Positions 2,216 through 29,424 of a DNA stretch of 39,781 nt are shown here, piece by piece (the stretch's first letter is position 1; every line of letters begins with the position of its first letter). The notes under the pieces were generated by a model. It did not search any database. It was not told the DNA's origin and saw only the letters and a list, made by a program, of their open reading frames with translations. The stretch is from Jimgerdemannia flammicorona (taxonomy: Eukaryota > Mucoromycota > Endogonomycetes > Endogonales > Endogonaceae), in contig RBNI01000152.1 in the NCBI GenBank assembly GCA_003990745.1, positions 1 through 39,781 of the forward strand. The letters are read 5' to 3'. Both the position numbers and the translations under genes were made by a program.

Positions 2216-2241
2216 AAAAATATCGGAGTTTGGTTTTTTGT

Positions 2242-2321: not shown

Positions 2322-2424
2322 GTTATTTTCGTTCCAATCCTGAATAAATTGGTAAAAAAACACATGACTAGGTGGCACATACCCACAAATATAAAAACAT
2401 GCGTCTTGTATCAAAATATGTAAA

Positions 2425-5080: not shown

Positions 5081-6430
5081 CATTGGAGGCAAGGTGATGG
5101 TTGGAGGTGAGGTGAAGTTGGAGGCAAGGTGATATTAGAGGCAAGACAATGTTGGAGGTAAGATGTTGGAGGAAAATGGGTGAGTGTTGGAAGAAAAGAG
5201 CATCAGAGTGAGCTGAGGCTTCAGAATAGATGATAAGGCAAGGCTACCCCCTCTAAAAAAAAATAGAAGAGCATTAACAAAAAGAAATTCCAAACCTAGA
5301 GCAAGGGCCCAAGACAAGGCATTGGAGGTGAGGTGATATTGAAGGTGAGATGTTGGAGGAAAATGGGTGGATGTTGAAAGAAAAGAGAATCAGAGTGAGC
5401 TGAGGCTTCAGAATGGGTGATGAGATGAGGCTCCCTTCTTTGAAAAAATAACATAAAATAAAATAAATAGAAGAGTACCAACAAAAATAAATTCCAAACC
5501 TAGAGCAAGGGCCCAAGACAAGATATTGGAGACAAGGCGACATTAGAGGTGAGAGAGAAAAATGGGCAAGTGTTGAAAGAAAAGAGCATTGGAGTAAGCT
5601 GAGGCTTCAGAATAGGTGATGAGACAAGGCTCTCTCCTTCAAAAAAAAAAAAAATAAAAAATAAAAGAGCACCAACAAAAAGAAATTCCAAACCTAGAGC
5701 AAGGGCCCAAGACAAGGTATTAAAGGTGAGGCAATATTGAAGACAAGGCAACATTGGAGGTGAGGTGACATTGGAGGTAAGGTGATATTGGAGTTGGAGG
5801 CAAGGTGACATTAGAGGCAAGGCAATGTTGGAGGCAAGATAATGTTAGAGGTAAGGCAATATTGGAGGTGAGGCGATATTGGAGGTGAGATGTTAGAGGA
5901 AAATGGGTAGGTGTTGGAAGAAAAGAGCATCAAAGTGAGCTGAGGCTTCAGAATGGGTGATGAGGCAAGGCTCTCCCCTCTAAAAAAAAAATAAAAAAAA
6001 AATAGAAGAGCACTAACAAAAAGAAATTCCAAACCTAGAGCAAGGGCCCAAGATAAGGCATTGGAGGTAATATTGAAGGTGAGGTGATGTTGGAGGTGAG
6101 GTGACATTAGAGGTGAGGCAACATTGGAGATGAGGTGATGTTAGAGGTGAGGCAACATTGGAGGTAAGGCAACATTGGAAGTAAGGCAACATAGGAGGTG
6201 AGGTGACATTAGAGGCAATGTTGGAGGCAAGGTGACATTGGAGGGGAGGCAACATTAGAGGTAAGGTGACATTGGAGGTAAGATGTTAGAGGCAAGATAA
6301 CATTGGAGGTAAGGCAACATTGGAGGCAAGACATTGGAGGAAAATAGGTGGGTATTGGAAGAAAAGAGCATCAGAGCAAGATATTGGATATTTGTGGCAT
6401 TGGATATTTGTAGCATTGGAGGTGAGGCAG
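5081..6430 (-). repeat. Satellite block S4 (subfamily B), CG-depleted, minus orientation
   Basis: The longest block. Long units are marked by AAATTCCAAACCTAGAGCAA at about 5286, 5491, 5686 and 6026, each preceded by an A-rich tract (5259-5269, 5641-5655, 5982-6001) that corresponds to the T tract of S3b. 17-bp units fill 5700-5890 and 6060-6330. They read GGTGAGGTGACATTGGA or GGCAAGGCAACATTGGA, exactly the TG and CA derivatives of the CG-rich S1/S2 unit. Only a handful of CG dinucleotides remain in 1.3 kb. The 60-100-codon open frames here are by-products of the repeat. Confidence 0.9.
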
Positions 6431-6711: not shown

Positions 6712-7663
6712 AATTAGCAGAATGACATCATCGCAGTAATATCATCATGTTTAATAGTAGCAGGAAGGAGATTAGGAGCTCTCCAATCTATGATATTTTT
6801 CTCTACAAAGTAGGAGACAAAGGTGGGATCTTTAGGGAGTCTGACCTGAATACTGGGGCTTTGGAATACTGAAATTAATTCTTATAGGAATTGATCTAGA
6901 TTGTTCTTGAGGATGGGATTCCAGAACTCTTCTATCTCATCACTTTTGAAAGTGATAATAGATTGGACTTCTGTAATCACTATGGCTTCTAGTGTATCTG
7001 TGTAGTAGGCTGAAACTTCCTCAAAGGTATACTCTAAGTTGGAGATTGACCAAGATACATATCTAAAGACTTGATGGATCTTTTTGGCTACTCTCAATTT
7101 GCATATATCCATAGAGGTGATATCTTGTATCTCTTGGAGACTAGCCTGAGGGAATTTCCAGTAGAGGAGGTTTCCTATTTTGTATTCCTATCATATTAAA
7201 AGGCATTCAGTAGTGGTAGTGATCCTTGTCTCTATTTTACAGCAGTAGAGAATAAAGTGGTAAGAGTTACTAGTACCCTGATTGAGACTAGGAATCCTTT
7301 TGGTATAGGTCCTTATGGCTCTCCTAATATCTTAGAATATCTTTTCTTAGACTGAGAAGCCTTGGTAGTTCTTGGACCTTGTGGTTTAGTGAGCAGTAGA
7401 TATTTTATTTATAGTGAGTCTTTTGAACTATTTCAGATTTTTATAAGTCTTGTTGAAGTTGCTGCTACTGTAGTTTCCTGGTCCTTCTTTTATATTTCTT
7501 GAGATATCTATCTTATGGTCATCATGACTCATGATTGGTCATCATTGCTTATTTTATAATCTGGGTGAGTCATACTGTATAATCTTCTTATGCTCCAATC
7601 TGGTAACTTATAAGGAAAGACTGTCTCCTGTGATGATGTCACCATTCTGAGATCACTGTTACA
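6712..7663 (-). mobile_element. Old, truncated LTR of the element 1/2 family
   Basis: The right edge reads GATCACTGTTACA (7651-7663), the complement of the TGTAACAGTGA start of the family LTR. Going left it matches the LTRs of elements 1 and 2 through the TATA-containing segment (CTTCTTTTATATTTCTTGAG near 7481) and the LTR reading frame. It then stops near the end of that frame (AGCAGAATG at 6718-6726, followed by an internal deletion). It is clearly more diverged than the other copies. The downstream LTR portion (second TATA box, poly(A) signal) is missing, so it is a fragment and not a full solo LTR. Inside, 6882-7112 still translates to AKKIHQVFRYVSWSISNLEY, homologous to the LTR protein; the rest of the frame is broken. 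Confidence 0.85.
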
Positions 7664-8041
7664 ATATTTAAAGGACATAATAGTATATAATTCGGATGAC
7701 AATAAGCTAATGACAGTTTTGAAACATAGCAATCTTTATATGATCAATGGTATGCTAAATAGTATAATAGTCTCTATATATATAATGTGACATATGGTAT
7801 GAAATAGAAACAGGAAATAGACATTTGATTATAGTATCTGAATCTGATTTCCAATTTAGTATAGTGTAGAAAATTACCTTTACTGCAGATACTGTATCTA
7901 AAATATTATCAGTGAAACTCTTATTACTTTCATGAATTTCAGATAGAATTTCACATGAGATTCTATCTGAGAATTTCATATAAAAAGACTTAATACTTAG
8001 CTGTATATTTAGTAGCAGGATTAGTGCACAAATCTGTATAA
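7664..8041. other. AT-rich spacer between LTR fragments
   Basis: AT-rich, with a small inverted repeat (TTTCAGATAGAATTTCACAT / GAGATTCTATCTGAGAATTT near 7937-7975). The minus-strand frame across this interval (7755-8240) runs into the element 1 LTR and shows no recognisable protein features. I see no gene. Confidence 0.5.
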
Positions 8042-8826
8042 TGTAATGGTGACCCCAGAATAATGACATCAGTACAGGAGACAGCCTTTCTTTGCAAGCC
8101 ACCAGATTAGAGTACAAGAAGATCATATGGTATAAAAGATGAGCAATGATGACCAACTGTAAGTCATTGTGACCACAGTATGGGTATCTTGAGGAAGATA
8201 AAAGAAGGATCAAGAAACTGCAGTAGTAGTAACTCAACAAGACCCACCAATCCCAAAATAGCTCAAAGACTTACCACAAATGAAATACCTATTGCCCACC
8301 AAATCTCAAGATTAAGGAACCACTAAGGTACCTCAGTCGAAAAAAGGATGTTCCAAGATATCAGAAGAGCCATAAGGACCTGCTCAAGAAGGACTCCTAG
8401 TGTCAACCTGGGTGCTGGTGACCCTTATCATTATATTCTCTACCACTATGAAATGGAAACAAAGATCATTGCAACCAAATGCCTCCAAATATGGCAGGAG
8501 TATGAAATAGGAAACCTCCTCTGCTGGGAGTTCTCACAGGCCAGCCCTCAAGAGTTACAAGATGTCACTCTCATAGATATATGTGAGATAAGGACAGCTA
8601 AGAAGATTCATCAGATCTTCAGGCATGTACTATGGTCAATTCCCAACTTGGAGTATGTTAGAGTCTCAGATTTCAGAGATCTGTCAGTCTGCTATATCAA
8701 TGTACTAGAAGTCAGAGTGACTATAGAAGCCCAGTCTACTATCACCCTCAACAGTGATGAAGTAGAAGACTTCTGGCATCCTATCCTCCAGGATAACCCA
8801 GACCAATTCCTGTAAGGCTTGATCTC
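8042..8826 (+). mobile_element. Truncated 5' LTR of element 1
   Basis: Begins TGTAATGGTGACCCC, with a TATA-like segment (GGTATAAAAGATGAGC near 8129-8144) and GATAAAAGAAGG at 8198-8209 where other copies read TATAAAAG. It ends inside the LTR reading frame where the sequence jumps to RT. The second promoter and poly(A) signal found in complete family LTRs are missing. Confidence 0.85.
8285..8815 (+). pseudogene. LTR protein copy in element 1 5' LTR, fused in frame to RT
   Basis: Homologous to the 287-codon frame at 15187-16050. The start codon has become ATA (8285-8287) and a TAA interrupts before the internal ATG at 8348, from which 155 codons are open. Conserved blocks include MFQDIRRAIRT, AKKIHQIFRHVLWSIPNLEY and DEVEDFW. 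The TAA at 8813-8815 stands where the other copy has CAA (Gln). Past this stop the frame continues in phase into the RT sequence GLISFVYVDDVIIFSN, so the deletion once created an in-frame LTR-protein/RT fusion. Function unknown. Confidence 0.75.
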
Positions 8827-10819
8827 CTTTGTCTATGTTGATGATGTGATCATCTTCAGCAATACTGCATGAGAATATATCAACCACATATAGCTAGCTC
8901 TCAAGAAGCTCAAGGAGTATGGCCTCTACATCAAGCCCAAGAAGTGTAAGTTTGTAGCTTAGAAAATAGCCTACCTAGGACATCTCATCCACCAGACTAG
9001 AATCCACACAGACCCTATGAAGATTGAGGCTGTTGCAGCCAACCTGAGACTCAGAACAACCACAGAAGTCCATGCCTTCCTTGGATTGGCCAGCTATTAC
9101 AGAAGATTCATCGAAGGATACTCTAACATTACAGCACTCATCTATGAGCTACTCAAGAAGGAGACCAAATTCAAATAGACCAAGGAATGCCAAGAAACCT
9201 TCAATGAACTCAAGATCAGATTGACCCAAGCACCTATCCTCAGAAGACTATATTGGAACCTAGAGTTCATCCTGCAGACAGATGCAAGCACTATAGAACT
9301 TGAAGCAGTTCTAGCTTAGAAGAAAAATGTATATGAATATGTCATCTCCTATACAAGCTGAGGTATCCATAGAGCAGAACAGAACTACAAGTCATACAAG
9401 CTTGAATGCTTAGCAGTTGTTTGGGCAGTAGACAAGTTCCACTACTACCTAGCTGGGAAATACTTCACCATTCAAACAGACCATTCTGCTCTTGTCTGGC
9501 TATTCCACACTCTGAACCCCAAAAAAATATATACTAGATGGATCTATAGGCAGCAAGAGTATGACTGTACTGTTAGGCACCACTCAGGAAAAATTAATAC
9601 CAATACTGATGTACTCTCAAGAATACCCCTATCAAGACTATTTAACATAAATAAGGAGTTATACTATGGATTAATCAGCTACCTTGGGCAGCAGAAGATG
9701 CCCAACCACCTCAAATCCTGGACAATTACCATCATCAACCAGACTTAGAAACAGTTTGAATTAGACAATACCATACTCAGAAAAGGAGGAAAGCTTATAA
9801 TACCTGAACACAAAAAGTATCAAGTAATGAAGGAAGTATACAAACAAGGATACCTAGGAGGAATCAACATATATGACAAGGCAAGAAGAACCATATGGTG
9901 GCCCAAAATGGAAGAAGACCTGCACCAATTTGTCAAAGAGTGTGACAAGTGCCAAAAACAGAAATAAGATCAGCAAGACCAAGCACCTGAGTCATCAAGA
10001 ATTGAGCCTATCCCCTTCCACCACATTGCAATAGATATCATTGGGCCACTACCAGTAACACTATCAGGAAACTGTTACATTATAGTTATTGTAGATCTCT
10101 TTACCAAATGGATAGAAGTAGGAGCATTACAAGAAGCCAATGCCCTCTCTATAGCTGACTTCCTGTACTGAGAAATCATCTGCCACTATAAGACACCAAG
10201 GCAAATCACCACAGACTATGGCACAGAATTTGTCAATGGATTTTATAAGATAATGTATCAGAAATACAAGATTCAGCACATCAAAACCACTATATACCAC
10301 TCTCAAGGAAATGGACAGACAGAGAGAACCAACAAGACCCTCAAGAACATCCTGGTGAAGATCTCAGAGACATATGAAAATTGGGATAACTACCTCCCAA
10401 CTGCTCTCTCTATCCTACAGTCACAGAGTATACACTTTATCCCAAGATTCTGATGGAACCTTAGCCACAAATCTAGATCTAACTTAGAGATAAATCGATG
10501 TGGAAATCTGGAGGCATACCAAATCAGGAAGAAGGCTGAAGATTACATCATCAAGTCACAAGTACTGACAAGGAAGAATGCAGAAAAGAATCACAAGATC
10601 CTAAAACCCATCCAAATTGAAGAAAAGGTCCTATTGTATTGAAATATGATAGAAGCCTCATGGTCGTGAAAACTGGAGCCCAAATGGGAAGGACTCTTCT
10701 ATATGCAAGATATCAAAGAAACTACCTTCTGGCTTAGAAAAATCTCAGAGACCATACTGCCTATCATGGTATATAGGAACAGACTCAAGAAGTATTATGA
10801 ACCTATACAAGAGAAGTAA
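8823..10819 (+). pseudogene. pol: Partial pol (RT palm, RNase H, integrase) of element 1
   Basis: Copies RNA to DNA and inserts it into the chromosome in intact relatives. The RT catalytic YVDD lies at 8831-8842. RNase H follows with TDAS near 9280, an ECLAVVWAVDKF helix and TDHSALVW. Integrase shows a zinc-binding CDKC, catalytic Asp residues in IAIDIIGPLP and QITTDYGTEF, and Glu in GNGQTERTNKTL (10253-10453 is an open piece). A GPY/F-like KWEGLFYM follows. The second His of the zinc motif appears as Tyr (GYLGG). At least a dozen stops occur, mostly TAG or TAA at Gln or Trp positions of element 2. No chromodomain is visible after the integrase. Ends at TAA 10817-10819. Confidence 0.88.
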
Positions 10820-11164
10820 AATGTGATGACTGCCCATAAGGTTTTAGTCCATGAATTGTAACAGTATGTCCTGTGACCAGTAGGCTATCTGTCTGGACCA
10901 TTCTCTAAGGGATATAGCACCAGCAACTACTCATCCATGAGACTTTCAAAGCTAGAGGAGTTCGAACCATCAACTGATTGGTCAAGATCAGAATCAGGCC
11001 CTTGCTCTATATGAAGGGAGTGACCCTTCACCATTATGCCAAAATATATAGAGAAGACATCAGCCCATAAACACCACTTTTTAACCCCTTGCCAGAGGTT
11101 ATGGGATCAGCAATTTTTTCAGGACTGGACCAATGAATAAGGATGCTCAAGAAGATTCTTATTC
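10820..11164 (+). other. 3' untranslated region of element 1
   Basis: Non-coding segment between pol and the polypurine tract, conserved with 16304-16650 of element 2 (shared AGAGGAGTTCGAACC and AGAGCAAGGGCC-type blocks), so it belongs to the element. Confidence 0.7.
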
Positions 11165-11174
11165 AGGAGGAAGA
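11165..11174 (+). promoter_or_regulatory. Polypurine tract of element 1
   Basis: AGGAGGAAGA directly abutting the LTR start TGTAACAG at 11175; the counterpart in element 2 is AGGAGGAGGA. This is the plus-strand primer site for reverse transcription. Confidence 0.85.
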
Positions 11175-11420
11175 TGTAACAGTGATCCCAGAATAATTCT
11201 ATCAGTATAGGAGATAGCTTTTCTTTGCAAGCTATCATATCAGAGCACAAGAAGATCATATAGTATAAAAGATGAGCAATGATGACCAACTGTAAGTCAT
11301 TGTGACCACAGTATGGGTATCTTGAGGAATATAAAAGAAGAATCAAGGAACCACAGTAGTAGCAACTCAATAAGATCCACTAATCCTAAAATAGCTCAAA
11401 GACTTACCACAAATGAAATG

Positions 11421-12251
11421 CCTGCTGCCTGTCAAACCTCAAGATCAAGGAATTACCAAGGCATCTCAGTTAAAGAAAAGATATTCCAAGACATCAGAAG
11501 AGCCATAAGGACCCACTCAAGAAGAACTCCTAGTGTTAACCTGGGTACTGATGACCCTTATCATTATATCCTCTACCACTGTGAAATGGAAACAAGGATC
11601 ACTATTGCTACCAAATGCCTCCAAATATTGCAGGAGTATGAAATAGGAAACCTCCTCTGCCAAGAGTTCCCCTAGGCCAGCCCTCAAGAGTTACAAGATA
11701 CCACTCCCATGAATATATATGAGACAAGAACAGCTAAGAAGATTCATCAGATCTTCAGGTATGCACTATGATCAATCCCCAACTTGAAGTATGTTAGAGT
11801 CTCAGATTTTAGAGATCTGTTAGCCTGCCATATCAATACACTAGAAGCCAGAGTAGCTACAGAAGCCCAGTCTACTATCACTTTCAATAGTGATGAAGTA
11901 GAAAACTTCTGGCATTCCATCCTCTAGGATAACCCAGACCAATTCCTGCAAGAATTGATCTCAGTATTCCAAGGCCCAAGCATCCAGGTTAGATCTCCCC
12001 AAGACCCCACATTTGTCTCCTATTTTGTGGAAGAGAATCTCATAGACTAGAGAGCTCCAGACCTCCTTCCTGCTACCACTGAATGTGATGATGTCATTGG
12101 TGATGATGTCATCCTGTGCAATATATGCGAAATATATGACCTACATAATGATGACAAGATAGATGAGATATTTGTGGACTTCATCTCTTTCAAAGACATC
12201 CTGATCTCTGATGAGGATAAAGCCTCTATAGTCTTGAACATTCTGCTCTAA
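11421..12251 (+). pseudogene. LTR protein copy in element 1 right LTR
   Basis: Near full-length homologue of the 287-codon LTR protein, starting at the matching ATG (NEMPAACQTSRSRNYQGIS) and ending at the matching TAA after VLNILL. It is interrupted by several stops (for example in place of Gln before ASPQELQD and of Trp before RAPDLLP). An upstream ATG at 11313 extends the open frame by 36 codons but lies at the TATA region, so the conserved ATG at 11421 is the better start. Confidence 0.8.
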
Positions 12252-12506
12252 GTCTCTTGGTTATACTGTATAATACCAGTACTCTTTTCCTATATAACAG
12301 CTATTCCACTACTGGCATTCTAATGTGACTCAGAATTATTCCAGCACTATTTTCCTATATCATCAAAATTATACCAACATCTTGAACCTGTACAACCATC
12401 AGTACCGACACTGGAACTTAGTAGTTTTCCCTGTTCTGGAATTTTATTTTAGTTATTGGAATTTATATTTAGCTTTATATCTTAGCAACCATTGAATTAT
12501 ATTTTG

Positions 12507-12539
12507 TATAAATACCTCTCTTATTTTCTTTAAAATAAA
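12507..12539 (+). promoter_or_regulatory. LTR core promoter (TATAAATA) with nearby poly(A) signal
   Basis: TATAAATACCTC at 12507-12518 followed 20 bases later by AATAAA (12534-12539). The same pair occurs in element 2 LTRs (14923-14916 with 14897-14890; 22231-22224). This probably sets the U3/R border and places the LTR reading frame within U3. Confidence 0.6.
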
Positions 12540-12897
12540 GCCAGTTTTGGTTCACTTACACACAATTCCTTACAAGCAATCTAAGAGATAATAAGACAGT
12601 TTTAAGATAAGAAGTTTGAGGACTATAAGATCTTGGGAAAGCACTCCAATAAGAACTTATTTATAACAAACTTGAGTTAGTCTAAGAGATATATCTTGAA
12701 GAGAATCTGACATATTTGAGGGACTCAGCAACCACTTTGTGACAATAAATAACTCAGTATTTTAGAGTGAATAAACCTCAGTTATATTAAGTCAGTTCAA
12801 TTTCAAAAAACAAGTCTTCTTTACATACTCTTTCCCCCTTCCTCTCTATTTCAAAATCCTACTAACTCACTAAGTTCTATGTCTACTATATTACAAC

Positions 12898-12960: not shown

Positions 12961-13020
12961 CCAGACTGTCAGACTACCAGACCACTGGACCGCCATACAG
13001 ACTATTATGTTGTACATAGT

Positions 13021-14671
13021 GTTTGTCTGTACCATCTGCTGTTAATTGGTTGTTCTGGTTGTTAGCCTCATTTCTGTGAACCATCAGTATTGAACAATAG
13101 ATGCTCTGCAAAGGACTGTATCATTGAGTTAATAGCCAGATTACTCCTTAGTTCAAGGAATAATGTTATAAGAATTAATCACTAAAAAACACTGAATGAA
13201 CTACAATGCCAAACAAGACTACTGTACTAACTGAAGCCATCCCATGACATATAATTTACTGACCTGACTTTTGAAGATACAACCCATCCCATGATATACA
13301 ATTTATGAACCTCCTGAATTAGAAGACATTGTTTATCTCTGTGCCATCTGCTGTTAATTACTTATTCTGGTTGTTAGTCTCATTTCTGTGAACCATCAAT
13401 ATTGAACAATAGATACTCTGTAAAGGATCACATCATTGAGTTAATAGCTGAGTCAATCCTTAGTTTGAGGGACAACATTATAAGAATTAATTACTGAAAA
13501 ATTCTGAATGAACCACCATGCCAAACAAGACTGCTGTATGGACCAAAGTCATCTCATGACATATGATTTGCCAACCTGACTTTTGAAGATATGATCTGTC
13601 TCATGATATATGATTTATAAACCTCTCAAATTAGAAGACATTGTTCATCTCTACACCATCTGCTATTAATTGGTTGTTCTGGTTGTTAGCCTCATTTCTG
13701 TGAACCATCAGTATTGAATAATAGACACTCTGCAAAGGATTGTATCATTGAGTTAATAGCCAAATTGCTCCTTAGTTCGAGAGACAATATTATAAGAATT
13801 AATTACCAAAATATCAAACAAACTACCATGCAAAGGACCACTATGGAGAATTAAAAGACATCATATATGAACCTCCCAAGACAACATACAAATAGAATGA
13901 ACTACTCTGGAGAACTGAAGATGTCATCACTCCCACTTTTGAAGATGTCATCATCTACCTGACTTTTGAATATACAAATGCTGTCTGTCATATATTGTGT
14001 TTATCTCTGTGCCATCTGCTATTAATTGGTTGTTAGTCTTATTTCTGTGAACCATCATCAGTATTGAATAATAGATGCTCTGCAAAGGACCACATTGTTG
14101 AGTTAATAGCTGGATCACTCCTTAGTTCAAGAGACAATATTATAAGAATTAATTACCAAAATGCCAAACAAACTACTATGCAAAGGACTGCTACAGAGAA
14201 TTAAATGATGTCACCTGAGTTAATTATTTAAAGAACACTGCTCATCATATAACTACTACTCTATTAAAGACATTATATATAAACCACCTGAGAGAAGATA
14301 CTATCATCTGACTTTTGATGATATATGAATGTCACCCATCATAAACAAACCACCCGCCCAACATATAAATAGACTGCCCTGAAGAATTGAAGATACTAAC
14401 TGTCATTGCCTATTAAAGATAATATATAAAAATGCAACCACCTGCCCATCATATGAATGCTGCCCATCATAAATGAACTGCCTGAGTGAAGAATACCACT
14501 TGACTTTTGAAGATGCCATCACTCGCGCAACTTTTGAAGATACTGTCATCTGCTCAACTTTTGAAGATACTTTTGACAAACATATGAATGAATGAACTGA
14601 CCTGGAGAATTAAAAGATGTCATATACAAACTGCCCAAGTGAAGAATGCCATCATCTGACTTTTGATGGTA
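13021..14671 (+). repeat. ~310-bp tandem repeats, internal region of a non-autonomous LTR element
   Basis: Four long copies begin with GTTTATCTCTGTGCCATCTG-type sequence at 13021, 13331, 13643 and 13999 (periods 310, 312 and 356). Each contains CATTTCTGTGAACCATCA, a GAGTTAATAGCC block with TCCTTAGTTC, and a GACTTTTGAAGAT block. From about 14220 the array degrades into short variants of GACTTTTGAAGAT and GAACTGCCTGAGTGAAGAAT. No coding frame is visible. Its position directly after LTR, primer site and gag stub suggests the body of a LARD/TRIM-like derivative. Element 2 cuts it at 14671. Confidence 0.75.
14666..14671 (+). repeat. Target-site duplication, left side of element 2
   Basis: ATGGTA, repeated directly at 23590-23595 on the other side of element 2. 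Confidence 0.6.
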
Positions 14672-14889
14672 TTGTCACATATAGGTTGCTGAGTCCTTCA
14701 AATATGCCAGATTCTCTTCAAGGTGTATCTCTTAGACTAACTCAAGTTTGTTATAAGCAAGTTCTTATTGGAGTGCCTTCTCAAGGTCTTATAGTCCTCA
14801 AACTTCTTATCTTTAAACTATCTTATTATCTCTTAGATTGCTTGCAAGGAAGTGTATATATTGTACTGAGTAGAACTAGAATAGACTGA

Positions 14890-14923
14890 CTTTATTTCAG
14901 AGGAAATAAGAGAGGTATTTATA
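14890..14923 (-). promoter_or_regulatory. LTR core promoter and poly(A) signal, element 2 3' LTR
   Basis: On the minus strand TATAAATA (14923-14916) then AAATAAAG (14897-14890), the same spacing as in element 1. The AATAAA probably directs 3' end formation of the genomic transcript. Confidence 0.6.
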
Positions 14924-15186
14924 CAAAATATAATTCAATGGTTGCTAAGATATAAAGCTAAATATAAATTTCAATAACTAAAAAAAAAAATGCCAGGACA
15001 GGAAAAACTGCTAAGTTCCAGGGTCAGTACTGATGGTTGTACAGATTCAGGATGCTGGTATAATTTCAGTAGTACAGGAAAATGGTGCTGGAATAATTCA
15101 GTGTTACCTCAGAATGCCAGTACTGGTATTATTTAGTATTACATCAGAATGCCAGTGCTGGCATTATTTGGTGTCACCAAAGAACT

Positions 15187-16050
15187 TTAGAGCAGAATGT
15201 TCAAGACCATAGAGGCTTCATCCTCATCAGAGGTCAGGATATCTTTGAAGGAGATGAGGTCCATGAATATCTCATCTGTCTCATCATCATCATTGCATAG
15301 GTCATATGTTTCACATACTTCATGCATATTATGTATCTCATGTATGTCACATATGATGATGTCATCACCGATGATGTCATCACATTCAGCAGTAGCAGAA
15401 AGGAGGTCTGGGGCTCTCCAGTCTATGAGGTTCTCTTTCACAAAATAGGGAACAAATGTGGAGTCTTGGAGAGGTCTAACCTGGATGCTTGGGCCTTGGA
15501 ATACTGAGATCAATCCTTGCAGGAATTGGTCTGGGTTGTCCTGGAGAATAGGGTACCAGAAGTCCTCTACTTCATCACTATTGAGGATGATAGTGGACTG
15601 GGCTTCTGTAGCCACCCTGGCTTCTAGTGCATCAATATGGTGGGCTGACAGGTCTATGAAATCTGAGACTCTAACATACTCCAAGTTGGAGATCGACCAT
15701 GGTGTATGCCTGAAGATCTGATGGATCTTCTTAGCTATTCTTGTTTCATGTATATCCATGAGAGTGGTATCTTGTAGCTCTTGAGTGCTGGCCTGTGGGA
15801 ACTCCCAGTAGAGGAGGTTTCCTATTTTGTACTCCTGCCACATTTGGAGGCATTCAGTAGCAATGGTGATCCTTGTTTCCATTTTATAGCAGTAGAGAAT
15901 ATAGTGATAAAGGTCACTAGTACTCAGGTTGACACTAGGAGTCCTTCTTGAGTGAGTCCTCATGGCTCTTCTGATGTCTTGGAACATCCTTTCTTCAACT
16001 GAAATACCTTGATAGTTCCTTGACCTTGAGGTTTGGCAAGCGGCAGGCAT
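15187..16050 (-). CDS. LTR-encoded protein of unknown function (287 aa, intact)
   Basis: An uninterrupted frame lying wholly inside the 3' LTR, ATG at 16050-16048, stop at 15189-15187. The start is supported because the same Met is kept in three of the four other copies that reach it, and TATAAAAG lies about 80 bases upstream. The N-terminal 40 residues are basic (DIRRAMRTHSRRTPS), the middle contains AKKIHQIFRHTPWSISNLEY and EVEDFWYPILQDNPDQFLQG, and the last ~50 residues are acidic with hydrophobics (NDDDETDEIFMDLIS). No signal peptide, membrane segment or known catalytic motif is seen. It is homologous to no gag or pol part here. I infer a regulatory or accessory protein of the retrotransposon; a basic N-terminus with an acidic tail would suit a nucleic-acid-binding activator, but that is a guess. 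It may alternatively be a captured gene. Confidence 0.7.
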   Translation of the reverse strand: MPAACQTSRSRNYQGISVEERMFQDIRRAMRTHSRRTPSVNLSTSDLYHYILYCYKMETRITIATECLQMWQEYKIGNLLYWEFPQASTQELQDTTLMDIHETRIAKKIHQIFRHTPWSISNLEYVRVSDFIDLSAHHIDALEARVATEAQSTIILNSDEVEDFWYPILQDNPDQFLQGLISVFQGPSIQVRPLQDSTFVPYFVKENLIDWRAPDLLSATAECDDIIGDDIIICDIHEIHNMHEVCETYDLCNDDDETDEIFMDLISFKDILTSDEDEASMVLNILL

Positions 16051-16129
16051 TTCATTTGTAGTAAGTCTTTGAGCTATTTTGGGATTAGTGGGTCTTGTTG
16101 GTTGTTGCTACTGTGGTTCTTTGATCCTC

Positions 16130-16137
16130 CTTTTATA
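16130..16137 (-). promoter_or_regulatory. Candidate TATA box for the LTR reading frame
   Basis: TATAAAAG on the minus strand, inside ATATAAAAGGAGGATCAAAG, about 80 bases before the ATG at 16050. The motif is kept at the same place in the right LTR of element 1 (about 11326), the 5' LTR of element 2 (about 23430) and, weakened, the old LTR fragment. Confidence 0.5.
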
Positions 16138-16292
16138 TTCCTCAAGATATCTGAACTGTGGTCACAATGACTCATAGTTGATCATCATCGCTCATCTCAT
16201 ATGCCATATAATCTTCTTGTGCTCTGATCTGGTGACTTGTAAGGAAAGACTGTCTCCTGTACTGATGTCATCATTCTGGGGTCACTGTTACA

Positions 16293-16303
16293 TCCTCCTC
16301 CTG
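16293..16303 (-). promoter_or_regulatory. Polypurine tract of element 2
   Basis: AGGAGGAGGA on the minus strand immediately before the LTR start TGTAACAG. Confidence 0.88.
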
Positions 16304-16654
16304 AATAAGGATCTTCTTGAGCATCCTTATTCATTGGTCCAGTCCTGAAAAATTTGCTGATCCCATAACCTCTGGCAAGGGGTCAAAAAGTGGTGTTTAT
16401 GGGCTGGTATCTTCCCTATGTATTTTGGTATGATGGTGAAGAGTTGCTCCCTTCATATAGAGCAAGGGCCAGATTCTGATCTTGACCAATCAGTTGATGG
16501 TTCGAACTCCTCTAGCTTCAAAAGTCTCATGGATGAGTAGTTGCTAGTACTATATCTCTTAGAGAATGGTCCAGACAGATAGCCTGCTAGTTATGGGACA
16601 TGCTGTTATGATTTGCAGACTAGAACCTCATGGGCAGTCATCACATTTTGCTTC

Positions 16655-19425
16655 TTTTATATAGGTTTATGGTACTTCTTGAGTCTGTTCCTATGTACCA
16701 TGGTAGGCAGTATGGTCTCTAAGATTTTTCTAAGCCAGAAAGTAGTTCTCTTGATATCTTGTATATAGAAGAGTCCTTCTCATTTGGGCTCCAGTTTTTA
16801 TGACTATGAGGCTTCTACCATATTTTGATACAGTAGAACCTTTTCTCTGATTTGGATGGATTTTAGGGTCTTGTAATTCTTTTCTGCATTTTTCCTTATC
16901 AGTGCTTGTGACTTGATGATATAATCTTCAGCCTTCTTCCTGATTTGATATAGTCTCTAGATTTCTGCATCAACCCATCTCCAAGTTAGGTCTAGATTGT
17001 GGCTGAGGTTCCATTAGAATCTTCTTCTCTGAAGAGCAATTCCCTTGGGGTAAAGTGTGTACTCTGTGACCATATGTCTCATAAGACAGAGAGGGCAGTT
17101 GGGAGATAATTATCTCAATTCTCATATATCTCTGAGATCTTCACCAAGATGTTCTTGAAGGTCTTGTTGGTTCTCTCTGTCTGTCCATTTCCTTGAGAGT
17201 GGTATACAGTGGTCTTGATGTGCTGGATCTTATATTTCTGATACATTATCTCATAGAATCTATTGACAAATTCTGTACTGTGGTCTATTGTGATTTGCTT
17301 TGGTGTCTTGTAGTAGTAGATGATTTCTCAGTTCAGGAAGTCAACTATAGAGAGGACATTGGCTTCTTATAATGCTCCTGCTTCTATCTATTTGGTGAAG
17401 AGGTCTATAATAACTATAATATAGTGGTTTCCTGATAGTATTACTGGTAGTGGCCCAATGATATCTATTGTGATGTGGTGGAAGGGGATAGGCTCAATTC
17501 TTGATGACCCAGATGCCTGGTCTTGCTGATCTTGTTTCTATTTTTGGCACTTATTACACCCTTTGATAAATTGGTATAGGTCTTCTTCTATCTTGGGCCA
17601 CCATATGGTTCTTCTTGCCTTGTTGTATGTGTTGATTCCTCCTAGGTATCCTTGGTCATATACTTCCTTCATTACTTGATACTTCTTGTGTTCAGGTATT
17701 ACTAGCTTTCCTCCTTTTCTGAGTATAGTGTTGTCTAGTTCAAACTGTTTCTAAGTCTGGTTGATGATGGTGATTGTCCAGGGTTCGAGGTGGTTGGGCA
17801 TCTTCTACTGCCCAAGATAGCTGATTAATCTATAGTATAGCTCCTTATTTATGTTGAATAGACTTGATAGGGGTGTTTCGAGGTGTCCTTGAGAGTGCAT
17901 CAGCATTGGTATTAGTTCTTCCTGAGTGGTGCTTGACAGTACAGTCATACTCTTGCAGCCTGTAGATCCATCTGGCATATATTCCTTTGGAGTTCAGAGT
18001 GTGGAATAGCCAGGTAAGAGCAGAATGGTCTGTTTGAATGATGAAGTATTTTCTGGCTAGGTAGTAGTGGAACTTGTCTACTGTCCAAACTACTGCTAAG
18101 CATTTGAGCTTGCATGACTCATAGTTCTGTTCTGCTCCATGGGTACCTTGGCTTGCATAGGAGATGACATATTCATGTCCATCTTTCTTCTGAGCTAGGA
18201 CTGCTCCAAGTTCTATAGCACTTGCATCTGTCTACAGGATGAATTCTAGGTTCCAATCTGGTCTTCTGAGGATAGGTGCTTGGGTCAACCTGGTCTTGAG
18301 TTCATTGAAGGTTTCTTGGCACTCCTTGATCCATTCAAATTTGGTTTTCTTCTTCAGCAGCTTGTAGATAGATGCTGCAATATTGGAATATTCTTTGATG
18401 AATCTTCTGTAGTAGCTGGCCAGTCTAAGGCAGGCATGGACTTCTGTAGTTATTCTGGATCTTGGGTAGGCTGCAACAGCCTCAATCTTTATGAAGTCTG
18501 TGTGGATTCTAGTCTGGTTGATGAGGTGTCCTAGATAGGTAATTTCTTGAGCTGAAAACTTGCATTTCTTGGGCTTGATGTAAAGGCCATGCTCTTTGAG
18601 CCTCTTGAGGGCAAGCTGTATGTGATTGATATATTCCCATGCAGTGTTGCTGAAGATGATCATATCATCAACATAGACAAAGAGCCATTTTCCAATCTTG
18701 TTGCTGAAGACTCTGTTCATCATTCACTGAAAACTTGCTGGGGCATTGCACATTCCAAATGGCATTTGCAGGTAGATATAGGTGGCATCAGGTGTGATGA
18801 AGGCTGATTTCTCACTAGCATCTTGAGTGAGACCAATCTGATGGAAGCCTGAGAACAGATCCAAGGTGGTGTAGTATTTGGCTTTGCTTCCAAGGGTAGT
18901 GAGGATTTCTTGAATGTTTGGCAAGGGCTGCCTATCCTTCTTGGTGTTGGCATTGAGCTTTCTGTAGTCAATGAAGAGTCTTGGTGCAAACTCTCCAGGC
19001 TTGCTTCCTTTCTTTGAGGTGAGGACAATGGGTGAAGCCCAGGGACTGATAGCTTGCTTGATGATTCTGGCTTCTTCCATTTCCTTGAGTTCTGCTTGCA
19101 GCCATTCTCTGTAGGCAGGTGGTATGGGTCTGGCTTTCTGGTAGATGGACTTGGTATCACTAGTGTCAACTTCATGGCAATACTTGGGTTCTTGATTGTG
19201 GATATCTCTGAAGTCTATAGCAAGTACTCCTTCATTCTGGTGCAGGATCTTGAGAAGTTGTTCCTCTAGGGGAAAGTTTTCTCCAATGAATATATGTATG
19301 CTTGTTCTGGTCCTTGTCTTTCTTGTATTCAAGTTTGGTAATCTTAGTAGTGACATAGGCTCCTCTTCCAGTAGATCCAAAGCCTTGTTCTCTTCTCTTG
19401 GTCTTGATGAGTTCAATGGCTTCAA
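16655..19425 (-). pseudogene. pol: pol of element 2 (RT, RNase H, integrase)
   Basis: RT begins in the frame opening at 19425. It has YCHEVDT...KARPIPPAYREWLQ, the fingers SPWASPIVLTSKKG, RLFIDYRKLNA, the palm TLDLFSGFHQIGLT and MPFGMCNAPASFQ, then after one TGA (18723-18721) FVYVDDMIIFSN with the catalytic Asp pair. Residues up to 18232 are open. RNase H follows (TDAS, AVVWTVDKFHYYL, TDHSALTWLF) and ends with a NADALSR motif. Integrase (about 17800-16660) has many stops, its conserved blocks corresponding to those of element 1. The N-terminal pol frame is offset by +1 from the gag-protease-dUTPase frame and overlaps it by ~190 bases. The RT active site is intact, but integrase is not. Confidence 0.9.
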
Positions 19426-19957
19426 TGATCTTGGGTTTCTTGATTTCGTAGATCAGCATCTGGCCAATCCTGTCATACTTCTTAACTTCAAATAGGGTGG
19501 TGGGGTTGTGATTTCTCACTATGAGGAAGATCTTGCCAGTGTAATCAGGGTCAATTACTCTTCCTTTAACTGAGATTTCACTTTTGGCCAGACTGCTTCT
19601 GGTCTTGATAATTCCAGCATAGTTCTCTGGCAGCTTGACTCCAATTCCAGTACCAAGTAGGGTGGTGGTCTGTGGTTCAAGGGTAGCATCTTGAATACTG
19701 GTAAGGTCCATTCCTATGGCTCCTTCAGTCTTGTATTCTGGGATCTTGGCTTCAGGGTGGAACTTCTTGACCTTGAGGATGATATCTGGTTCTTGTTCCT
19801 CCTCATCATCACTGTCAGCTTGAAGCTCTAGGGGCTGGTCATCTTCTTCAGCATTCCTTTTTGCTTTGGCAGCTTCTTGCTCATGTTTCTGTTGGTGGAT
19901 TTTCCTGACTTCACTGATATAGGACCAGTAGTCATTCAGGTGTTCAGAGCAGTACAT
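19232..19957 (-). CDS. dut: dUTPase domain of element 2 polyprotein (between protease and RT)
   Basis: dUTPase hydrolyses dUTP to dUMP and so limits uracil in the DNA copy. All five family motifs are present in order in this open stretch: EGAIGMDL (residues 79-85), KTRSSLAKS (about 118-126), GRVIDPDYTG with the catalytic Asp (132-141), YDRIGQML (161-168) and RREQGFGSTGR (188-198). Residues 1-60 are a charged linker (ADSDDEEEQE). The frame is continuous with gag-protease upstream across a single TAG (CAG in origin) and overlaps the RT frame downstream, so it belongs to the element polyprotein; the ATG at 19957 is only the first Met after the stop. The domain length is typical. It is the best-preserved enzyme in the element together with RT. 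Confidence 0.9.
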   Translation of the reverse strand: MYCSEHLNDYWSYISEVRKIHQQKHEQEAAKAKRNAEEDDQPLELQADSDDEEEQEPDIILKVKKFHPEAKIPEYKTEGAIGMDLTSIQDATLEPQTTTLLGTGIGVKLPENYAGIIKTRSSLAKSEISVKGRVIDPDYTGKIFLIVRNHNPTTLFEVKKYDRIGQMLIYEIKKPKIIEAIELIKTKRREQGFGSTGRGAYVTTKITKLEYKKDKDQNKHTYIHWRKLSPRGTTSQDPAPE

Positions 19958-20014
19958 TCTAGTACCATGGGGGCATCTTCCTTGAGGGGCATAGCCATCA
20001 ATAATCTTGTTGTA

Positions 20015-21976
20015 CTACTGCTCATCTGTGAGCTTGGGTGTCTTGTTCTTATTCACCAAGTGCATGAAGACCTCTGTGTCCTCTTCATCTCCTTTCTCTA
20101 TGTCTGATAGGACTCCTTTGTGGACATTGATAGAGACTTGTACCTTTCTTCCTCTATAGTTGATCTGCATCTTCTGGGCATTGAGGTCAATGATGGCCTT
20201 GGCCTTGTGAAGCCATTGGTTGCCAATGAGGATGTTATAGTTAGTGGTACTTGTAACAATCATGTCTACTGGAATAGTAGCTCCTCCTATCTTGATAGAG
20301 ACTTCTCAGATTTTGCCAAGGGGGGTAGCTTGTGTACTATCTGCTGTAACATAGACCATCTTGGTGGACTCTTCAATGTCCCAACCTAAACAGTCAATTG
20401 CCTTCTTGCTCATGAGGCATCCTCTAGCACTGGTATCAATAATAGCATCAAAGATACAGTCTTCAATCTGACATGGGGTATAGGCTGATGTCTTGCACTG
20501 GTCTTTAGATTCTTCACCTGAGTTTTCAGATTCTTTCTGTGCATTGTGAGCTTCCACAATCTTGTACTCTTGATTCTTGACAGCAGTTGCAAGCTCTACT
20601 CTCAACTGCTGTCTGAAGGCAGGGACTTTGGCTAGCTGTCCAAAAGTAGCATTGACCTTCAGTTTCTTGAGATCCTTGTAGATATCATACTGGTGGATCT
20701 TGGTCTTGTACAACTTCTGTTCCTTCTTGCTTTCACTTTCTCCTGAGACTGGAGTAGTGCCTTCAATGATTTGGTGGGCAGCTTCATCTAACTCTATGTC
20801 TTGATCAATCTCTTTGGGTTGAGTCTTGCTTTGAATAGTGACAGCTGAGGTCTTCTTTGGTCTTCCAACTGGCTTGCTGTTGCTCTTTTTGTCATAGGGC
20901 TTGGACTGGGTTCTGGTACCTTCAGTAGTGGGGTAGAATTCAAGCTCCTCATAGTATTCTTCATCATCAGTATCACCAATCTCCTTGATGACTACTGTAT
21001 TGGTTTGTTCTCTAGTTCTGCTAGCATTGCTTGGTTGGGCTTTGCATCTTGTTTCAGTCATATAATTATTTACATAGTGGCCTTCTTCTCTATATCTGAA
21101 GCATATGATATTATGTTCTTCTGTAGCAGCTGTAAATCTTTGCACTGGTCTCCTGTTGGCACTTCAGACTTCTCTAACAACATCACCAAGGTGTGCAGTC
21201 ATCTTGGCAAACTCCTTGGCAAGTTCCTCCACTGGGTCAGCTTTGACTGTTTTGGGGGTAGGTGAGGTTGGTTGTCTGTTTACAACTGTAGCAGATATGA
21301 TACTAGTTGGCTTTGATGGCTCTATCTTGATACCAGTTATTTTCTCCATTGAGTATTTGGCAGGATGTCTGGCAGTCCAATATCTCTGTGCAAAGACCAC
21401 TTTCTGATCAAGGGTCAGTGCAGTTGGGGTAGACCAGATTGCTAGAGCAATTTCAGAGTGAACTCCTTTGAGGAAGGTTGAATCTGCTATTTGTTCCTTG
21501 AGGCAGTCATCATAGCCAGCCAAGACAATCTGGTGGCAGATTCAGGTATAGAATGAGTTGGGATCTTCACTAAGTCTCTGGCAGATAGTATTAAGTTGAT
21601 CCTTGAGAGCTTGCTTGATCTCTTCAGTATAGTATGTTGTTCTGAGGAAGGCCTTCATATTGGTAAGTTTGGCTGTACCATTATTGGCAATGGTGGCTGC
21701 ATTGAACTTATCTCTGGCAGGTCCTCTGAGGCTGACTGGTAGAAGGGCCAATTGTGCATCCACACCAAGGGCTTGTATGGCAGCGAATTGTTCAAAGTCT
21801 TCAATGAAGGTCAGGATTGACTCTTCAGTAGTATATCCATAGAATGTGGGGGGACACATTTCCATCTTGTCTTAAATTCTTGCAGAGGTAACTCTTGTAG
21901 TCAGGGTAGTTATTGTGGAAGTTGTTCGTTTTTCAGCTTGAAAGTGAGGGATTCATCTTGAATCACTAGCCAATGG
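20015..21976 (-). pseudogene. gag: gag, zinc knuckle and aspartic protease of element 2
   Basis: Forms the particle and matures it in intact relatives. The ancestral start is next to the primer site: element 1's stub reads ATGGCTGG there while this copy reads ATTGGCTAG (21974 leftward), so the start is lost. The main open part begins at 21865 with capsid-like sequence (TFYGYTTEESILTFIEDFEQ, SLRGPARDKFNAA). A TGA at 21541-21539 and another near 21146 replace probable Arg codons. The zinc knuckle is damaged: CFRYREEGHYVNNYM has Tyr at two Cys positions. The protease motif reads IDTSARG instead of DTGA. A TGA splits it near 20305 and a TAG at 20014 precedes dUTPase. All these changes are transitions. 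Everything stays in one frame. Confidence 0.88.
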
Positions 21977-21984
21977 ATACCAAG
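21957..21984 (-). promoter_or_regulatory. Primer-binding region of element 2
   Basis: Directly inside the 5' LTR end (TATGACA): ACTTGGTATCCATTGGCTAG on the minus strand. TGGTATCC would pair with a tRNA ending GGATACCA; I cannot name the tRNA. The same block stands at 12896 after the element 1 right LTR. The primer site overlaps the ancestral gag start. Confidence 0.55.
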
Positions 21985-23589
21985 TTGTCATATAGTAGTT
22001 GCTGAGTCCTTCAAATACACCAGATTCTCTTCAAGATATATCTCTTAGACTAACTCAAGTTTGTTATAAGCAAGTTCTTATTGGAGTGCCTTTCCAAGGT
22101 CTTATAGTCCTCAAACTTCTTATCTTTAACTGTCTTGTTATCTCTTAGATTGCTTGTAAGGGATTGTATGTAAGTGAACCAGAACTGAATTGACTGACTT
22201 TATTTCAGAGGAAATAAGAGGGGTATTTATACAAAATATAGTTCAATAGTTGCTAAGATATAAAGCTAAATATAAATTCCAATAACTAAAATAAAATGCC
22301 AGGACAGGAAAAACTGCTAAGTTTCAGAGTTAGCACTGATAGTTATATAGGTTCAGGATGCTAGTATAATTTGGTATCACATCAGAATGCCGGTGCTGAT
22401 ATTATTTAGTGTTACATCAAAATATCAGTACTGGAACAATTCTGCATCACCTCAGAATGCTGGTGCTGGCATTATCCAGTATAACAAGGGACTTAGAGCA
22501 GAATGTTCAGAATCATGGGGGCTTTATCCTCATCATCAGAGATCAGAATGTCTTCAAAGGAGATGAGGTCTATGAATTCATCATCATTGTCATATAGGTC
22601 ATGAATTTCACATACTTTGCATGCTTCATCATGTGTCTTGCATATATCATGCAGGATGATATCATTGCTGATGACATCATTATATTCAGTAGTGGGGAAA
22701 TCAGGAACAAGGAGATCTGGAGCTCTCCAGTCTATGAGGTTCTCTTCTACAAAATAGAGAATAAATGTGGGGTCTTGGAGAGGTCTAACCTGGATACTTG
22801 GGCCTTGGAATACTGAGATCAATCCTTGTAAGAATTGGTCTGGGTTGTCCTGAAGAATGGGATGCCAGAAGTCTTCTACTTCATCACTATTGAGAGTAAT
22901 AGTAGACTAGGCTTCTATAGCCACCCATATTGATATGGCAGGATGACAGGTCTCTGAAATCTGAGACTCTAATATACTCTAAGTTGGGGATTGACCATGG
23001 TGTATGCCTGAAGATCTGATGGATCTTTTTAGCTGTCCTTACCTTGTATATATCCATGGAAGTAGCATCTTGTAGCTCTTGAGGGCTGGTCTGTGAGAAC
23101 TCTTGGCAGAGGAGGTTTCTATTTCATACTCCTGCCATATTTGGAGGCATTCAGTAGCAATGGTGATCCTTGTTTCCATTTTACAGCAGTAGAGGATAAA
23201 GTGATAAGAGTCTGCAGTACCCAGGTTGACACTAGGAGTTCTTCTTATATGGGTCCTCATGGCTCTTCTGATGTCTTGGAATATCCTTTCTTCGACTGAG
23301 ATACCTTGGTGGTTCCTTGACCTTGAGGTTTGGTAGGCAGCAGGCATTTTATTTGTGGTAAGTCTTTGAGCTATTTTGGGATTGATGGGGCTTATTGATT
23401 GCTGCTACTGTAGTTCCTTAATCCTTCTTTTATATTCCTCAAGATATCCATACTATGGTCACAATGACTCACAGTTGATTATTATTGCTCATCTCATATG
23501 CCATATGATCTTCTTGTGCTCTGATCTGGTGACTTGTAAGGAAAGGCTGTCTTCTGTGCTGATGTCATCATTTTGGGGTCACTGTTACA
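21985..23589 (-). mobile_element. 5' LTR of element 2
   Basis: Right edge GGTCACTGTTACA at 23589, left edge TTGTCATATAG at 21985. It contains TATAAATA (22231-22224), a TATAAAAG-type motif near 23430 and a broken copy of the LTR reading frame. It is similar in length to the 3' LTR but carries many substitutions and small indels. Confidence 0.9.
22493..23347 (-). pseudogene. LTR protein copy in element 2 5' LTR (frameshifted)
   Basis: Two open pieces correspond to the two ends of the 287-codon LTR protein: 23347-23039 (MPAAYQTSRSRNHQGISVEE) and 22822-22493 (VFQGPSIQVRPLQDPTF to VLNILL). Between them the frame is lost through small deletions (for example near 23120 and 22930) and a TAG. The acidic end DNDDEFIDLISF is retained. 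Compared with the intact 3' LTR copy, both substitutions and indels have accumulated since insertion. Confidence 0.8.
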
Positions 23590-27363: not shown

Positions 27364-29394
27364 ATGGCGAATGACAAGCAACCTGAGGTGCGTACTGGGC
27401 AGGGTGGCCCAAGCGCTTTCAACTGGCAGCAGGTGGAGCAAGGTCCAGGCCTGGGGGGGGGTATGAGGGGGCTGCTGGCCGGTGGACATGGAAGGAGTGG
27501 AGGAGGTAGTGGAGGCTTTGGATCTGGGAGGGCGAGCTTCGCGGAGATGGTGAAGGGGAGACAACAGGCATCAGGACTGGAGGGCTGGCTGAGGAAGGGA
27601 AGGGAGACCGAGAAGGAGAAGGCACCAGTGCAGGGGAGAGCAGCCCTTGGAAGAGGGAGCGGTAGAGCTGGGGGAGTAGTGGCTGGGGGGAGTGTGACTG
27701 CTGATGGCGGTGGGACTGTCGATCTGGAAAAAAATCCAGATGTGACAGCTGATGGCGAGGCTAAGCGGCTAAGGCTTAGACGACAAGAAGACTTGGCCGA
27801 TAGTGTAATGGGTCTGGCGGTGGTCCCGTTGCTCAAAAAATCGATCTCAGCATTCACGGTTACACTGTGCTTCCGGGGCCTAGCGGTGATGGCGAAAATG
27901 GTGTTGGGGCTCATCGCTATGCAGGTGGCAGGGGCTGCATCTGTGAAGTTCTTGAAGGGCCTGGAGGGAGTGGAGGTTGGTTTTGAGGAGGTGGCGCCAT
28001 TGGAGGAGGCATTGAAGGTTGGATTGGTGGTTGGAGAGGTGTGTGTTCCAATGGCACGCTGTCTGAAGTGGGATCCTAGGGTGGTCCAACTGTTGGTAAA
28101 GGGAGTGCTGATGGTGACAGCAATGGAGACGAGAAAGAGGGTGGAGGACTTCATGGTGGAATATGGAGAGGTGGTTGATGTCGGATTTCGGGTCTGGGAA
28201 GGGACTACACTCAGGACTGAGGACATGGATGTGAGGATTAGGCTGGCTGGGAAGGAAGCTACTGGGAAGGCGAGGGACTGGCCTTCGGCAATGGTCTGGG
28301 GAGCGATTTTGTATAAGGTGACGAGGGTGAAGGGAAGTGAGGAAGAGGAGGAGGATTTGTTGGAAGCACTCGAAGAGTTGGAGGGTACTGTGGAGAAGCG
28401 GACGAAGGCCTGAGCAGCCTTCGTGGAGGCGACGTACTTGGAGGTGGTGGATGGCAAGTGGATTCGAGTGAACAAGAAGCAGTGGGAAAGGGATCAGGGG
28501 CGTAAGAGGCAGAAAGAGTTGCTAGTCAAGATGGGCAATAGGCCACTGGGGAATGCAAGCGAGGGGAAGGGCACTGGGGGTGCTGGTGTGAGTATCTGGG
28601 CTGGCGAGGGGGAGGGGAAGGATAAGAAAGCAGATGGAGAGGACAGGGAGAAGACTAGCAAGGATCTATTTGCTGATGGCATGCTGGAGGTTTGGGAGGA
28701 GGATTGGGAGAGCTTCCCTACCCCTACCCCCCTTATTAGGTGTGGCCCGGCTTCCCGAAACAAGGTGGTAGAGGATGTGCAGATGCAAGGGGCCCAGAGG
28801 GTGCAATTCGGGGTTCCGGAGGTGGTGTATAGTGGACAGGTGGAGGCTACTGGTGAGGAGGAACTGGTGAATGTCCCAGAGGTGTGGGATGAGTCTGCGA
28901 GTGTCAGAGCTGACACCACTATGTTGGATGGTGGGAGGCTGGTGACTCCAGGGGGGAAGGAGGTGGGGAACTTGATTTGGATGCGTCGGATGATGAATGA
29001 CCTAGCAGCAGAAGAGTTGGGGGAGGTGGACTTGCGGGTGATGAGTGATGAGCACTGGGCTGGAATTCTGCAGGGGGATGGAGTGACAAAGGCATTGAAG
29101 GCAGAAATTCTTGTGGTATACCTAGCTGAGGAAGGGTATGAGGTGGATAAGGAGAGGGAGGTGGAGATGGCAGTTGTTGCGGGGGAGAGGGCTGAGTACT
29201 GCTGGAATGAGCATCATGGACTGCAGCTCTGGCAGGAGGTATGCATCGAATATCGGGAGGAGTTCGAGGAGAAGGCTGATGATGAGATGAATGAACTGCT
29301 GGCTGGATTGGAGGCTCAGAGGAGGGAAGAGGAGGAGGTGGCTGCAGAACACAATCTGGACATAGTACAGGAGGAGATGAGCATGGAGCAGTAG
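27364..29394 (+). pseudogene. LINE 1 ORF1 (one in-frame TGA)
   Basis: ORF1 proteins of LINEs bind the RNA and act as chaperones. From the ATG at 27364 the frame runs 349 codons to a TGA (28411-28413) and continues in the same frame to TAG at 29392. The N-terminus is Gly-rich (GPGLGGGMRGLLAGGHGRSG) with a SFAEMVKG motif. Residues ~240-320 (LMVTAMETRKRVEDFMVEYG onward) may form an RRM-like fold, which is a weak inference. The C-terminal half is acidic and coiled-coil-prone (EAQRREEEEVAAEH). No CCHC knuckle is seen in ORF1. The TGA sits between Ala codons, probably a former CGA. Confidence 0.8.
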
Positions 29395-29424
29395 AGATTG
29401 ATCGACAACATAACATATATCATT

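Follow-up and report, generated by a model that had tools for sequence, protein, structure and literature searches.

A 287-codon frame within the long terminal repeat of a fungal retrotransposon, with signs of protein-level selection and a possible role in trans

A sense frame inside the LTR

Long terminal repeats (LTRs) of retrotransposons are treated as regulatory DNA, and solo LTRs are usually dismissed as dead. In a stretch of 39,781 nucleotides from the fungus Jimgerdemannia flammicorona (contig RBNI01000152.1 of assembly GCA_003990745.1, hereafter the window), a long frame is open inside an LTR, which raises the question of whether this frame is kept as a protein-coding gene and, if so, what its product might do for the element. 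The fungal transcription-factor domain PF04082 (Fungal_trans) has 22 matches in the assembly and none in 14 control genomes, in agreement with a fungal host; the velvet family, which matched neither the assembly nor the controls, speaks neither way.

The ORF listing of the window places the frame on the minus strand, with an ATG start and a product of 287 amino acids, exactly where the initial annotation had put a sense frame of 287 codons. We call it sense because the protease-like, dUTPase and reverse transcriptase (RT) frames and the gag pieces share its strand. When the LTR was shuffled 2,000 times under a first-order Markov model, no ORF reached 287 amino acids, the longest being 203 amino acids. 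The features of the element and of its relatives in the window are as follows.

15187–16050, minus strand: 287-codon frame in the 3′ LTR (from the ORF listing, copies in the genome and selection tests)
14673–16292, minus strand: 3′ LTR, TGTAAC...TGACA, about 1,620 bp (LTR alignment)
21986–23589, minus strand: 5′ LTR, its copy of the frame broken (LTR alignment)
16131–16137, minus strand: first TATA box (TATAAAA), 87 bp upstream of the ATG, exact in 82 of 83 ungapped rows
14916–14923, minus strand: second TATA box (TATAAATA), presumed start of the genomic RNA, exact in 80 of 82 ungapped rows
14891–14896, minus strand: AATAAA poly(A) signal, exact in 80 of 82 ungapped rows
15088–15169, minus strand: CCAGYRCTGG palindromes in a tandem array (period 35 bp, 2.3 copies) lying between the stop codon of the frame and the second TATA box
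16293–16301, minus strand: polypurine tract adjoining the 3′ LTR (sequence)
21966–21982, minus strand: presumed primer-binding site, starting with TGG 3 bp past the 5′ LTR (sequence)
21164–21865, minus strand: gag pieces, assigned by position; the piece tested has no Pfam match
20306–21145, minus strand: knuckle-like motif (by eye) and the beginning of an aspartic protease (below-cut-off matches to PF13650 and PF13975)
19232–19957, minus strand: dUTPase domain between protease and RT (PF00692, E = 1e-26)
18724–19425, minus strand: part of the RT (PF00078, E = 3.9e-12)
8041–12747, plus strand: second element of the same family, internally deleted and in opposite orientation, its frames decayed (sequence comparison)
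6722–7663, minus strand: relic LTR, about 74% identical, from a diverged subfamily, with a decayed form of the LTR frame (sequence comparison)

The host element has two direct LTRs with TG..CA ends, a primer-binding site and a polypurine tract, as in a Ty3/Gypsy LTR retrotransposon, and Pfam matches RT and dUTPase in its Ty3/Gypsy-like internal region, the match to protease being weak and below the cut-off; the dUTPase places it among dUTPase-bearing Ty3/Gypsy elements. Its two LTRs differ by 14.6%, against 9.7–13.4% in nine other LTR pairs, and it may therefore be a recombinant. The flanks of the element (14673–23589) share TACCAT, which is longer than the 4-bp duplications suggested by a few solo LTRs.

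The frame is flanked by TATAAAAG on one side and by the TATAAATA/AATAAA pair on the other. In LTR coordinates, TATAAAA begins at 156, the ATG at 243, and the stop codon ends at 1106; the palindrome array comes next, then TATAAATA at 1370 and AATAAA at 1397. Both placements made from the sequence at the outset, a TATA box ahead of the ATG and a TATAAATA/AATAAA pair 3′ of the frame, agree with these positions, the members of the pair beginning 264 and 291 bp past the stop codon. Judged by these motifs, the frame appears to lie in U3. The ATG is kept in 69 of 85 aligned rows. The further suggestion of potential expression from both LTRs fails for the element in the window, because the copy of the frame in its 5′ LTR is frameshifted and open only as pieces of 102 and 109 amino acids.

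Among 31 A/T-only heptamers in the LTR flanks, exact conservation ranges from 0.01 to 0.99 of rows, and those of the TATA boxes and AATAAA rank at the top; conservation of the TATA boxes is thus partly explained by their being motifs without C and G. Palindrome-like sites (at most one mismatch) are concentrated in one interval: across 82 copies, 115 lie between the frame and the second TATA box and one elsewhere (5.72 versus 0.007 per kb), and 17 of the 82 copies have no such site. A non-coding block 5′ of the second TATA box, LTR 1323–1342 (window 14951–14970), is conserved almost like the TATA boxes and is possibly a regulatory site.

Probable selection on the frame

A search of the 134.8-Mb assembly with the LTR frame gave 4,485 first-look candidate places, of which the best 136 were scored; the window itself apart, these are 75–87% identical to the window's frame. 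The initial annotation had staked its case on intact frames in other copies and on a codon-position bias among them, and both were found. Counted by eye, 13 of the 136 best-scored places, the window's own included, lack an internal stop, as do 55 of the 142 best-scored places when a relative, P0001, served as the query.

The codon-position bias is seen in eight copies picked by place and not chosen by similarity, four of them in the window and four beside fetched copies; the 3′ LTR of the second element belongs both to these eight and to the 136 scored places. Differences among these copies were 0.184, 0.129 and 0.265 at codon positions 1, 2 and 3, with 0.164 upstream of the frame. Omega was 0.65 (0.54–0.80) over the 28 pairs, 0.66 (0.51–0.87) within the family, 0.64 (0.52–0.80) between the diverged type and the family and 0.53 (0.41–0.66) between the diverged subfamily and the window's frame. 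Omega values from the place-picked copies include post-insertion decay, which pulls them towards 1, and come from pairs that are not independent.

A larger sample consisted of 80 copies from the 134 scored places outside the window (rows 1–60 and 81–100 of the list), all 80 of which match the LTR across the frame, each as a single alignment of 1,009 bp or more. These copies were chosen because their proteins best matched that of the window's frame, which introduces a sampling bias: a neutral simulation of choosing by protein similarity gave an apparent ratio of nonsynonymous to synonymous changes (non/syn) of 0.76 and, again relative to synonymous changes, a stop ratio of 0.72. The bias overstates constraint in the pairwise, tree, omega and nonsense, non/syn contrast and gag comparisons made with this sample, and it also touches the comparisons between LTR partners, between random pairs and of the relic with the copies; the comparison of the relic with the window's frame is exempt.

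Subject to this bias, the mean pairwise difference in the larger sample was 0.159, 0.095 and 0.189 at codon positions 1, 2 and 3. On a tree of 84 rows, from which the second element's truncated LTR was dropped and in which the diverged relic served only as outgroup, internal changes per non-CpG site numbered 0.80, 0.43 and 1.45 at the three codon positions, with 1.41 in the upstream and 1.34 in the downstream LTR flank, LTR 901–1030 being counted apart in this tally. For the core of the frame (codons 1–219), with omega and nonsense expectations built from flank mutation rates, internal branches gave an omega of 0.63 and 21 nonsense changes against 73.7 expected (0.28), and terminal branches an omega of 0.77 and 158 nonsense changes against 198.2 expected (0.80). 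In a base-stratified contrast that left out CpG-prone and poorly covered sites, non/syn at non-CpG transition sites was 0.43 in the frame versus 0.78–1.10 in six flank frames, the same stretch read in its five other frames giving 0.56–3.33, and none of 2,000 base-stratified shuffles matched the contrast between frame and flanks. The terminal omega of 0.77, the terminal stops at 0.80 and part of the rest are as expected, because the copies were chosen by protein similarity, whereas the internal stops (0.28) and the internal non/syn (0.43) are lower than the biased choice alone gives (0.72 and 0.76). On these substitution patterns, the LTR frame is very probably under protein-level selection.

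Two decayed, diverged relics compared with each other gave an omega of 0.98 (0.69–1.39), and LTR partners gave 0.77 (0.62–1.00) in ten pairs and 0.86 in seven. A deficit of stops was seen neither between LTR partners (observed/expected 1.17 in the ten pairs and 1.35 in the seven) nor between random copy pairs (1.06) nor between the diverged relic and the copies (1.29). Because random pairs and the relic also lack a deficit, pairwise stop counts do not tell selection apart from decay, a distinction that comes from the internal branches alone.

The tail (codons 220–286) is near-neutral overall (omega 0.93). Distinct indels, with those in multiples of three in brackets, number 6 (2) in codons 1–210, 28 (20) in codons 211–219, 174 (83) in the tail, 55 (12) upstream and 161 (38) downstream, so that the excess of in-frame indels is located at the border of the tail. 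The core pattern is not independent evidence of selection, since full-length protein matching predicts the same scarcity in codons 1–210.

Constraint on gag, the intended positive control, was not found in 33 copies and the window's own: internal non/syn was 1.00, and 0.94 for a second piece, with 1.67 and 1.27 in gag's other two frames, against 0.59 for the LTR frame in the same copies, an unequal comparison in that gag was not chosen by similarity. The same 33 copies thus show gag (21164–21865) unconstrained and the LTR frame (15187–16050) constrained, a difference that sampling bias may explain in part; at face value, it would suggest that the need for the LTR product is more direct than that for Gag.

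The protein product and its possible role

The product had been described as matching no known family, a description upheld by Pfam, the PDB and a search of 5.8 billion proteins. Pfam gave no family at E ≤ 1 for the window's frame, and for 20 members only weak matches to ATG5_HBR (best E 0.088) and DUF2095 (0.25); PDB matches to the window's frame began at E 0.5, and a profile gave none. The 5.8-billion-protein search returned five relatives with a single sequence, and a profile search six; the contigs that carry them come from ENA or JGI and are 778 to 1,625 bases long. IMG/VR gave no relatives. No sequence match was found to the superantigen family of MMTV (Pfam, frame and 20 members) or to a known transactivator family (Pfam and PDB), and the product bears no similarity to six gag, protease, dUTPase and RT pieces of its own element (best blastp E 5.7), so that an origin of the frame from these pieces is not supported. 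AlphaFold gave no usable model of the full length (20 rows, mean pLDDT 40.7) or of the first 218 residues (30 rows, mean pLDDT 41.3), and no DNA-binding fold was recognised in the product.

The distribution of charge is uneven along the protein. The N-terminal residues 1–56 are basic, with a net charge of +3 to +8 in the nine members where this part is complete; the core, at −4 to −15, is acidic. Of 20 members, 19 have a tail with a net charge of −9 to −22, and the remaining one lacks tail residues. The tail is acidic and variable, yet it has the conserved hydrophobic motifs L-I-S-F and LNxLL, with L265, I266, F268, L283, N284, L286 and L287 nearly invariant among 20 members. Acidic tails with hydrophobic motifs resemble activation domains in composition.

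We tentatively favour a reading in which the LTR is a compact gene encoding a selected, element-specific protein that acts in trans on the LTR, all steps of the role being inferred. U3 would comprise a TATA box, a short leader, the 287-codon frame and then a shared poly(A) signal, and the protein would have been retained by selection while the family spread. A short mRNA would start past the first TATA box and end past AATAAA, and the genomic RNA would start past the second TATA box. The product might then work in trans on LTRs, its basic N-terminal part and core making contact with DNA itself or with a partner bound to it; the 35-bp palindromic array 5′ of the main TATA box is a plausible site for this, although the palindromes could serve a host factor instead. 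The tail, acidic and bearing the L-I-S-F and LNxLL motifs, may recruit the transcription machinery or, in a genome that has lost much of its CpG, work against silencing. Our best guess, by inference, is an LTR-encoded activator or anti-silencer. With CpG in the window down to 0.18 of expectation, we consider de-silencing and plain activation equally plausible. Solo LTRs could also supply the protein, because the gene sits in the LTR. In its widest form, which we hold to be possible but doubtful, every LTR, solo ones included, would be a self-contained gene, and a new kind of protein would bind the array and activate or de-silence all copies in trans, joining them in one self-regulating network.

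The same arrangement can be read differently. The main RNA might start at the first TATA box, giving an R of about 1.1 kb and making the frame the first ORF of the genomic RNA, with a structural or replication accessory protein (an RNA chaperone, or a particle or integration cofactor) as its product. The exactness of the first TATA box in all but one of the 83 ungapped rows, the basic N-terminus and the element's other genes coming next on the same strand all fit such a long R. The poly(A) signal would then fall in the 5′ leader, however, and the second TATA box and AATAAA are about equally conserved and begin only 27 bp apart, as fits a short start/stop pair; we regard the long R as unlikely, though the strongest of the alternatives. 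Less likely again, by our analysis, is that the product inhibits new transposition of its own family and is supplied by many LTR copies. Ty1's truncated Gag limits the transposition of its own family, and a gene in every LTR would have a dose that grows with copy number, in keeping with the 4,485 first-look places; the lack of similarity to the six gag and pol pieces speaks against an inhibitor of this kind, and selection on a spreading lineage favours benefit to the element.

LTR retrotransposons capture genes, and the frame might be a captured host gene or fragment, a passenger of the LTR with little or no present role. No relative is known outside the LTR-frame family from the 5.8-billion-protein and profile searches, and gag and the decayed relic pair demonstrate that the selection test can return no constraint. 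Frame-specific constraint in the place-picked copies and the depletion of nonsense changes on internal branches nevertheless argue against a passenger and leave it improbable. A non-coding artefact, in which base composition and strong CpG decay left a frame open by chance, is very improbable: CpG observed/expected is indeed low (window 0.18, frame 0.07), but shuffling failed to reach 287 codons in all 2,000 trials, and the signal survives both at non-CpG, base-stratified sites and in the place-picked copies.

If the favoured reading holds and the LTR is a compact gene for a trans-acting protein, a selected gene wholly within the LTR of a fungal retrotransposon would mean that solo LTRs may still express protein, that each LTR end may act as its own gene, and that an element needs no gag-pol of its own to spread copies of a trans-acting factor. 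Such a gene would also allow the persistence of elements in a CpG-destroying genome to be tested directly.

Comparable elements and neighbouring sequences

In position, the frame resembles MMTV sag, a complete sense frame in U3, present in both LTRs and separate from gag-pol. The likeness ends there: MMTV is a mouse retrovirus and its product a membrane superantigen, no sequence relation between the two was found with Pfam, and the host here is a fungus without T cells. The transactivators Tas/Bel-1 of foamy viruses are comparable in the proposed role only, that of an element-encoded activator with an acidic tail acting on its own LTR; they are not known to be encoded wholly within U3, and the LTR frame has no Pfam match. 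VANC anti-silencing proteins of plant VANDAL transposons oppose the silencing of their own family and, set beside the LTR-frame product by description, are likewise alike in proposed role only, differing in that VANC is a gene of a DNA transposon and not in an LTR.

Among fungal elements, PosPlaTy3-5 shares with the element in the window a dUTPase between protease and RT, and dUTPase-bearing elements are reported for Phanerochaete and Tuber (PMC2864245). The relevant portions of that article differ from our case in naming no LTR frame for PosPlaTy3-5 or the others; a figure legend mentions an additional ORF, its function not known there (PMC2864245). The relevant phrases of PMC12037069, PMC4016481 and PMC13195028 concern polyprotein ORFs, non-LTR ORFs or protein domains and not an LTR frame. 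Across excerpts of the open-licence literature, no fungal element with a gene wholly in its LTR was found; a precedent in print is possible.

Other repeats share the window with the element. The interval 13014–14213, between the two oppositely oriented elements, holds about four units of about 312 bp, and satellite-like repeats of about 190 bp, some of them inverted, occupy 1125–3202 and 5160–6068. At 304–735, a repeat with a nine-base period has overlapping frames on both strands. The interval 27364–33081, GC-rich (0.51–0.53) as far as about 33 kb, is probably a LINE-like element: it contains frames that encode 349, 323 and 378 amino acids, the last with an endonuclease/exonuclease/phosphatase domain (PF03372, E = 7e-10).
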